Shown here piece by piece: positions 21,906-29,219 of a stretch of DNA of 35,036 bases (the first letter of the stretch is position 1; every line of letters starts with the position of its first letter). The stretch covers positions 1-35,036 of the IMG/VR virus record IMGVR_UViG_3300005935_000061, one strand, 5' to 3'. Origin of the DNA: a virus. The position numbers were made by a program, and so were the translations under genes. The notes under the pieces were generated by a model that worked only from the letters and a program-made list of their open reading frames with translations, did no database searches and was not told the DNA's origin.

Positions 21906-24900
21906 CTATATTCTTTTACCGCTTGTCTTACTCTTTTTGTTATCTTTTATTCTATTCTCAACTATTCTTGACCACTGACCTACAGGAGCGCCAACACCCA
22001 ACTCTGCATATATACCAAAGCTATCTATAATATCAAAAACAGTTATGTTATCTAGCTCTTCTCTCATCGTTTTATATAAACTGTATGTTGCTTTACCACT
22101 TTTTTCTAAGTCACCCAGAACTGGTAATGAAAATACCTGTCTTCCGTAAGCATTAAAAGTTTCTCCTTTAGCTTCTGCCATTGCCATATCTATAGCCATC
22201 TTATGAAAATCACTTAGTATCGGGATAGCGTTAGTAGGCGAAGAGAGCAGGGCTTTCATTGTATAATCAAACAGTCTATCTTTAGGTTCGTCTTCATCAT
22301 CTTTACCAAGCATATAGAAAGACTTCATTAACGCACCAGAAGCACCGTATATTGTAGGCTGTATTAATAAATAGATTGCCATTGTCTTAGCATATTGCTG
22401 GAATGTTATATCGCCATTCCTTAACGCTATCTGAGCGTCTACCATCTTACGAGTATACTGCATCGATGTATTCTTAAATGCTGTAAACATCTTTATAACG
22501 CCCTTTGCATTAGCTTGCATTAAACCAATATCGCCAGATAAGCCAGACTGTTGTGATTCTTTAGTAACCTCTACAAACTTATCAAACGCAGCCTCTTTAG
22601 ATAAATTACCACCTGCCTCAGTTTGTAAATAATCAACATAAACCTTACCACCATATATGATAGCGCCTATATCACCCATGCGAACCATGCTAGATAATCC
22701 CTTTGTCCATACTTGTTTTTTAGCCATTGACTCAGAGTTCTTTATTGCCTGCATCATTGCCTCAGAGTTACCGCTACCATACCTTGCCTTTAAGTAGTCA
22801 GAGTTTTCAAGCATATATGTTGCCGTAGCCTTGCCGTTTAAGACAGATTTAGCCATCCCAGCAGCCCATTCAAGAGGCGGCATGTTCTCAGCATAGTTAC
22901 TCATTGAGCCAAGCTGTTTAATAAATACTGTAGGGTTAAGCGCTATCTTAGATACCACCCAGTTACCTATAAGGTTATTAGCCACACCCATTATTTCATC
23001 AATACGCTGTACCTCTTTGTTTAAAGAGTTCTCGTTAATCAGTGCTATAACAGAGCTATAGCCATCTTCGCCTATCTTCTTAATAACCTCACGCCTAACC
23101 AATGGATCGTCAAAGGTGCGTCGCATATCTTTCCATGTATCGGTAACTTCTATAGTATGTTCTGCCTGGTCAATATGTCTCATTGCTAAGTTCATAATAG
23201 GGACAGGTTTTAAAAATACCTTGCCCGCTGCCCTTGCTTTAGAAGCGCTCATTGTCTCACCCTGCATTTTAATGTCAGCGTTTAAGTCTTGCATGTGTTC
23301 TGATACTCTAGGGAAATAGTTCTCTATGCGTCCTTGATCTAAACCTGTGTTCTCTATGTTCTTACGGTTTAACTCTTCGCCATAAGACTGTACTGTCTCC
23401 ATTATTGAATCAGCAAATGCCTTATCTTGTGCGGTAAGTTCTGCGAACAGAGCGTCTAGTTGGTCTTGTCCAAACTGTTCAGCCATAAGGTCGTGTGTTC
23501 TTTCGTTCTTATCCCAATTATACATGCTCATTATTGTCTGTTTGTTTATCTTGTCAGAGCTATCAAACCTCTTATCAAGTATGTCGTAATTCTTTTCATT
23601 TAATCCATCTAGCACAGTGTCTAGTTGATAATCACTCTCAGCGCCATAGATAGCTTTAGCGTTATCACGCATAGACTCTTTAGCCATATATGATTTAGTG
23701 AACTTCTCTGTTTGGGCTTTAGCCATATTAAACATATCAACTAATTTCTTACCGCCAAGTACGTTCAACATGCTCTTGATATTAGCTATACTGCCAACGT
23801 ATTTTTTTAATAGATCACCCTTAAGTGTTCCCTCTTTTAATTCAAACTTAGAATCTTTGATAGCTTTCGCCGCGTCCTCTTTCATTGTTTGACGATTATA
23901 TTTCTTGTCGAACATAACGTCGGTGTCAACCTCTTCTGCTAATTGTTTGGCTCTTTTTATGCCATCTAATACTTGGGCGTGTAGTTCTACACTACCTCTC
24001 ATGCCGTTTGCCTTGTAGTCTAAGTATTTAATCTTTAACAGATCAGACTCTTTTAATATCTTTTGGTGGCCGTTCTCGTCAACTGCATTAACCTCAAATG
24101 ATTGTATAGCGTTATATGCTTGCTCTTGGTTATACTTGCTGTATTCCCTGAGGTCTTTAAATATAAGGTTGTCTGCGTATTGATATCTACCAACTACCTT
24201 AGAGCCTTTCTTAATATTACCTGTACTGTCTAGCTCTTTTTTAATAGCCTTGTTGATAACACGTTTTTGCTGTTGTCTATATAAATCTTTACCTTTAGCG
24301 GCAATTTTATCTTGCATATTCCAAAGCTGTTTTCTGGTTCTAACTTCTTTAATAGATGAAATAAACTTAGCCTTGTCTTTAGCCTCTAATGGCAAGCCCT
24401 TAATTAAATTAGTAAGCTCTTGTTGGACCTGTGCAGTTGATACATATTTAGCGGCCTCTTTAACTGATACTTTAGCATCACTAACAAGCTCGTCTAGTTC
24501 GGCCTCTTCTGTTGGAGATAATTCAGATTGCTGTGCGCTCTTGTGCATCTTAATAAAATTAGCTTTACTCTTAACGAATGACAACTCTTGTATAAACTCA
24601 TCTTCGCTCATACCCAAAGTATCAGCCCATTCATCAGTTGATATTTCTCCTCTTTTAATTCCAGGAAGAGACTTTTTATAAGCATCGGTAGGCATAACCC
24701 CAGCCTTTATAGCCTCTGATATAGGTAACTCTTCAAATGCCTCGGCAGCATCTTTACTTGAAACCTTCATCCCCTTTTTTATATTCTTAATAATCGATGC
24801 CGCTTCTGGTATTTTAGACACCTTTAGTATCTTATTGGCATATCTCTTTTTGATTGCCTTAATCTTAGCCTCTAGGTCTTTGATCTTACGTGAAGCCTCT

Positions 24901-29219: not shown

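Follow-up and report, generated by a model that had tools for sequence, protein, structure and literature searches.

The DNA examined, a complete IMG/VR virus record of 35,036 bases (IMGVR_UViG_3300005935_000061; hereafter the window), carries on its minus strand a giant open reading frame (ORF) at positions 21906-29219, which starts with GTG at 29219, includes no internal stops and encodes a protein of 2437 aa. The product probably represents an ejected polyvalent polyprotein that is cut at short glutamine (Gln, Q)-ended tags in its domain joints by its own embedded zincin metallopeptidase. The observations behind this reading are homology, synteny, catalytic residues, the presence of a tag at all joints, and covariation between tag and protease across relatives. 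The parts of the protein, with window coordinates and the basis of each assignment, are as follows.

21906..29219, minus strand, giant polyvalent protein gene, 2437 aa (GTG start)
27519..29219, minus strand, N-terminal part, residues 1-567, no recognised domain, tag 1 at its end (Pfam search and motif)
27519..27530, minus strand, joint tag 1, PLIQ, residues 564-567 (motif)
27111..27518, minus strand, divergent ADP-ribosyltransferase (ART)-like module, residues 568-703, with YRG, GLYVS..AxxY and GYDG (profile, alignment, AlphaFold2)
27111..27122, minus strand, joint tag 2, PLYQ, residues 700-703, Gln at least 90% conserved in A7 (motif, conservation)
25392..27110, minus strand, module B, residues 704-1276, with PGGTNYRE, EEIQSDWHQ, GGEFHKTLY and ITPEM, no Pfam name, GNAT-like candidate (profile, AlphaFold2, Foldseek)
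25392..25403, minus strand, joint tag 3, PLFQ, residues 1273-1276, Gln invariant in A7 (motif, conservation)
24900..25391, minus strand, zincin metallopeptidase of the CLCA_X/Bbp10 type, about residues 1277-1440, profile envelope 1254-1503 (profile, homology)
25290..25304, minus strand, HELSH (HExxH), residues 1306-1310 (motif)
25146..25163, minus strand, FARGFE, residues 1353-1358 (motif)
24900..24911, minus strand, joint tag 4, PLFQ, residues 1437-1440 (motif)
21906..24899, minus strand, C-terminal tail, residues 1441-2437 (homologous to the tails of relative L100 and other syntenic giants)

As judged by its domains, the protein is a phage polyvalent protein, an already known kind (Iyer et al. 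2017, PMC5512222), with at least two unlike biochemical domain types in one chain, namely the zincin, module B and the ART-like module, each recognised by profile. A preliminary description made from the DNA letters had read the ORF as one giant ejection-slot protein of several joined modules, and this was borne out by synteny and profile matches. The motifs quoted there are all present in the 2437-aa ORF, with FYRGV at residues 589-593, GEGLYVSTSKKEASTYG at 605-621, VLFVEEIQSDWHQAG at 937-951, and HELSH and FARGFE at the positions listed above. At seven or more further loci the order ART, module B, zincin and long tail is found again; this architecture is not unique.

Gln-ended tags at the domain joints

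The motif PL[FYI]Q occurs four times in the protein and only at domain joints: one copy precedes the ART-like module, two flank module B on its ART and zincin sides, and one follows the zincin. Shuffling gave a mean of 0.03 such motifs, and none of 2000 shuffles reached four. In the first AlphaFold2 model all four tags lie within or border low-confidence linkers, and in the second model the tag between the ART-like module and module B was again within a low-confidence stretch. The tag consensus is [IP]-L-[FY]-Q, with G, S or A as the next residue.

Covariation of the tags with the zincin

The residue that ends module B was Q in all 33 parsed proteins with this zincin and in none of the 46 without it (Fisher 5e-23), where S, A, E or others were found. 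Behind the ART domain, Q was present in 44 of 46 proteins with the zincin versus 1 of 64 without (4e-27), about a quarter of the zincin-positive ART matches being unparsable and excluded from the counts. Both zincin-positive exceptions seem to be domains of a different type that were misread. The lone zincin-negative case with Q, L182, has a tagged ART in an 827-aa ORF and the zincin in the next, separate ORF, and may be a split giant in which the protease would act in trans. Further cases with Q outside the filtered set are either cut by a contig end or have the start of a zincin visible there. As Q was found in 32/32 proteins whose ART and zincin are separated by more than 100 aa (100-1180 aa), it is not a part of the zincin fold. 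The module before the zincin varies between relatives, and a hydrophobic-x-Q tag usually lies directly ahead of the zincin. Over whole giants, the pattern [ILVMP][LIVMFYR][FY]Q occurs at 1.57 times expectation with the zincin and at 0.64 times without it (p 4e-8). A general window permutation inside the zincin-positive set was not significant because all members share Q. The defined sites of a self-cleaving polyprotein are represented here by tags that covary with the zincin, which is a correlation.

Where this zincin is absent, a tag of another kind is repeated: L063 has RFMPA twice, L033 has PQFE twice and many proteins have Ixx-S, the tags seen with other proteases being FMP, [FY]S and QFE. 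In 16 of 18 such proteins the ART and module B tags share the last residue (8.0 expected by permutation, 0/5000). FMP tags are found 3-6 times in L236, L237 and L238, which include a zincin of a different clade, HExGHH..HG. In these three proteins and in L217, FMP[AST] is repeated 3-6 times at joints, together with an HE(V/L)GHH zincin, an apparent second tag-protease pairing. The 4200-aa ORF of L195 carries the Q tags RFQ, RYQ and PMFQ and two other zincins, with HEWWH and HELTH; none of the Bbp10 type is present before the contig end, and L195 possibly has a different Gln-specific protease. Matching tags in each protease clade are what protease-specific sites would be expected to look like. 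For polyvalent proteins in general, we consider it an even chance that every module ends in a tag matching the clade of the embedded protease (Gln for Bbp10/CLCA_X, FMP for HExGHH, Ser for others), such that module shuffling would need retagging and the injected chain would be cut into separate effectors.

Zincin and proposed processing

The zinc peptidase suggested by HELSH in the preliminary description proved to be a true zincin, as the zincin family profile matches the giant protein with E 5e-51 and HExxH is intact in 127/127 relatives. Residues 1283-1442 match Bbp10 of phage BPP-1 (blastp E 3e-21, 32% identity), which is one seed of the CLCA_X zincin family (PMC3650047). FARGFE is kept in the relatives, and the invariant Glu1351 just ahead of it is likely the third zinc ligand.

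Self-cleavage, earlier raised as a possibility, is the likeliest role of the protease, with candidate sites and statistics added, all of them correlation. In the proposed mechanism, the zincin-plus-tail block would be the conserved vehicle of this podovirus group, in the slot held by Bbp10 in BPP-1 and gp50 in N4, and the N-terminal part, the ART-like module and module B would be cargo, variable between relatives. The zincin would recognise the Gln-ended tag at the joints and cut there, during assembly or after ejection, and the cargo modules freed from the vehicle would each reach their own target. We infer the cut itself, with its exact scissile bond and its timing, and likewise the effects of the ART-like module and module B on the host.

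Several points weigh against cleavage at the tags. The Gln of tag 4 is absent in most relatives, and tag 1 is recognised by its motif alone. The relatives were chosen for their similarity and come largely from IMG/VR; the tag parser had to be corrected, its first version having misread about two fifths of the zincin-positive cases; and the tag upstream of module B was read by eye, its regular expression being unspecific. The ART tree is weakly supported, with 4 supported pairs. Finally, N4 packages its zincin-bearing virion RNA polymerase (vRNAP) uncut (PMC5512222).

Alternative explanations

Given that N4 packages a zincin-bearing giant uncut, the main alternative is that the tags serve docking or packaging: the zincin would bind Gln linkers and leave them uncut, clamping or scaffolding the giant chain so that it is folded for encapsidation and ejection. 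The zincin region of the N4 vRNAP is required for packaging (PMC5512222), and docking would give an identical covariation between tag and zincin. However, binding alone would not need the HExxH that all 127 relatives keep, and other protease clades pair with a tag residue of their own, as substrate specificity predicts. Docking without cleavage is regarded as unlikely.

The covariation could also reflect descent, Q-ended ART domains and B modules having been inherited with this zincin lineage without any role shared between tag and protease. The zincin-positive giants do belong largely to one podovirus group, and the low support of the ART tree leaves room for this explanation. However, the zincin state changes 16 times in the module B tree and Q changes likewise, with agreement in 6/6 supported independent pairs (p 0.03). 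When closest relatives with and without the zincin are matched in disjoint pairs, 30/30 pairs agree for module B and 42/45 for ART, with 0 opposed, so that gain or loss of the zincin without a change of tag was seen in 0/30 close module B pairs. In addition, unrelated modules (ART, B and others ahead of the zincin) bear the same tag, and the matching of tags within a protein holds also without this zincin. Inheritance without a shared role is improbable.

A purely mechanical ejection protein resembling T7 gp16, or a lysin, with the modules as relics, is likewise given little probability. Relatives are annotated as lysin or crystallin-like, and the ART part is divergent, having lost the first catalytic His; against this, the Pfam search found no peptidoglycan-hydrolase family in the giant protein, and module B, like the zincin, is strongly conserved. 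That the tags are structural caps, each module's last strand ending in hydrophobic-F-Q/S with the residue set by packing of the neighbouring domain, is very improbable, for although module B retains its final PLF regardless of the neighbouring domain, including in zincin-less and solo proteins, it is the last residue alone that goes with the zincin, even at distances of 100-1180 aa, and the tags lie in low-confidence linkers.

Module B

The preliminary description had picked out the conserved block EIQSDW, which is real, but missed the 570-aa module around it. Module B is present in at least 500 phage proteins in IMG/VR (including L019-L098 and L261-L337), often as a stand-alone protein of 600-800 aa. 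It corresponds to no Pfam family, and no GNAT sequence profile matched it. AlphaFold2 modelled most of the module with a confidence (predicted local distance difference test, pLDDT) above 80-90. In Foldseek searches of solved structures, SSAT and other GNATs lead with weak matches (E 0.04-0.3, probability up to 0.6), and in the viral library N-acetyltransferases come after true homologues. Its strands and helices follow one another in an order that fits a GNAT carrying a coiled-coil insert behind strand four, and the module ends with a helix, 'ITPxM', then PLF and one further residue. A GNAT-like fold, and with it a possible acyltransferase, is slightly favoured.

ART-like module

The reading of this part as a toxin-like enzyme in the preliminary description is weakened, its homology to ART-PolyVal apart. 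A profile of 130 ART-PolyVal relatives matched this region with E 5e-4 (about 20,000 decoys), the best of 500 shuffles reaching 0.86, and same-architecture relatives (L038, L041, L086, L102, L124 and others) have a clear ART-PolyVal domain at the same position. Homology to ART-PolyVal is thus very likely. A first ART profile, built from one phage, gave no significant score; the region did not reach the Pfam gathering score for ART-PolyVal (PF18760), and an LPD23-like seed did not match. Two ART alignments were rejected as YRG was out of register. The H-Y-D triad is incomplete, the Y and D positions being kept and the first His replaced by R591, a variant also found in relative L077. The usual ART end, QIKSAxGNxGTF, is missing and the end of the fold is altered. 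The first AlphaFold2 run left the part unresolved, and a later model includes the expected early strands, at pLDDT 40-79, which is not a confident fold. Given the Arg at the first catalytic His, the altered end, the sub-threshold Pfam score and the lack of a confident fold, toxin activity is doubtful, and NAD-using activity, though possible, is somewhat less likely than its absence.

Genomic context

The genes around the giant gene are as follows.

33917..34546, minus strand, tail tube A-like protein (phrog_394)
31420..33915, minus strand, tail tube B-like protein (phrog_376)
30894..31418, minus strand, internal virion protein (phrog_418)
29209..30894, minus strand, 561-aa ORF without a Pfam match; relatives have a lysozyme/transglycosylase ejection protein in that slot (Pfam, synteny)
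21213..21581, minus strand, peptidase M15 endolysin, directly downstream of the giant gene

The minus-strand order is therefore tail tube A, tail tube B, internal virion protein, 561-aa ORF, giant gene and M15 endolysin, a late, virion-gene setting in which the giant gene starts shortly before the 561-aa ORF has ended. This gene order is common to BPP-1 (Bbp14-Bbp10) and podoviruses of Acinetobacter, Pseudomonas, Caulobacter, Vibrio, Cobetia and Limnohabitans as well as uncultured ones, and more than ten phages have a giant gene in the matching slot, encoding a protein of 1900-4000 aa. As judged by synteny, the ORF encodes the ejection-slot protein of a podovirus (short-tailed phage). From the gene slot we infer that the protein is packaged in virions and ejected into the host. 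No virion proteomics of any Bbp10-type protein was found in the literature searched.

The ORF is not a chance one, as it matches Bbp10, phrog_9880 (residues 980-1417, E 3e-31) and a family of more than 500 IMG/VR proteins (residues 706-1188, E 3e-131). Pfam and Protein Data Bank (PDB) sequence searches with the whole protein gave nothing useful, and a single-protein scan of IMG/VR found no close relatives of the giant. The C-terminal approximately 1000 aa are homologous to the tails of relatives, with 34% identity to L100 over residues 1282-2431.

Elsewhere in the window, genes for a Rha regulator (12602-13345), KilA-N (15880-16491) and an ERF recombinase (13965-14501) were found, and from these the phage may be temperate. 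An ORF at 19106-19612 reads like a NUMOD4/HNH homing endonuclease.

Relation to known systems

The protein shares with the polyvalent proteins of Iyer et al. (2017) the combination of unlike domains in one late product, a HExxH zincin hub, an ART and predicted delivery with DNA, and differs in that module B lies outside Pfam and the ART is divergent, with R for H. Bbp10 of BPP-1 and its relatives (phrog_9880) occupy the same slot after the tail-tube and internal virion genes, have the same zincin and belong to the same giant family, whereas they carry other cargo of their own ahead of the zincin, with KFYQ before it, and are annotated as lysin or crystallin-motif proteins. In N4, gp50 is the product of the third gene of a three-gene ejection operon (gp52-gp51-gp50) and consists of cargo, a zincin (C1) and then a large helical domain, C2 (PMC12633501); its cargo, however, is an RNA polymerase, it is packaged uncut, and the alignment of the zincins is weak (hhalign E 0.036). 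The giant protein of Dolichospermum phage Dfl-JY45 likewise includes ART and module B in one chain, with B present twice (29% identity to module B), but it lacks a Bbp10-type zincin, has S/A-type tags and comes from a larger phage. L100 (IMG/VR 3300028840_001905) has the closest zincin and tail (34% over 1150 aa) but neither ART nor module B, and a different module lies between its KGLFQ and PALYQ tags.

Autoproteolysis of polyvalent proteins by zincins has been predicted without the cleavage sites being named (Iyer et al. 2017, PMC5512222), and the literature searched, with most subscription journals and preprints outside its scope, gave no cleavage sites for such proteins. Relative to these sources, two things appear to be new, namely the tag rule and the GNAT-like candidate module B, which has no name yet.

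That zincins cut polyvalent proteins into separate effectors has been proposed since 2017, and the tags supply exact candidate sites in this protein and a rule for predicting sites in hundreds of further proteins. With the tags, domain borders can be drawn objectively and unknown cargo modules can be spotted as the stretch that a pair of tags encloses; tags and proteases together make up a candidate collection of natural protease-site pairs. The self-processing of polyvalent proteins, predicted and never mapped, thereby becomes directly testable.
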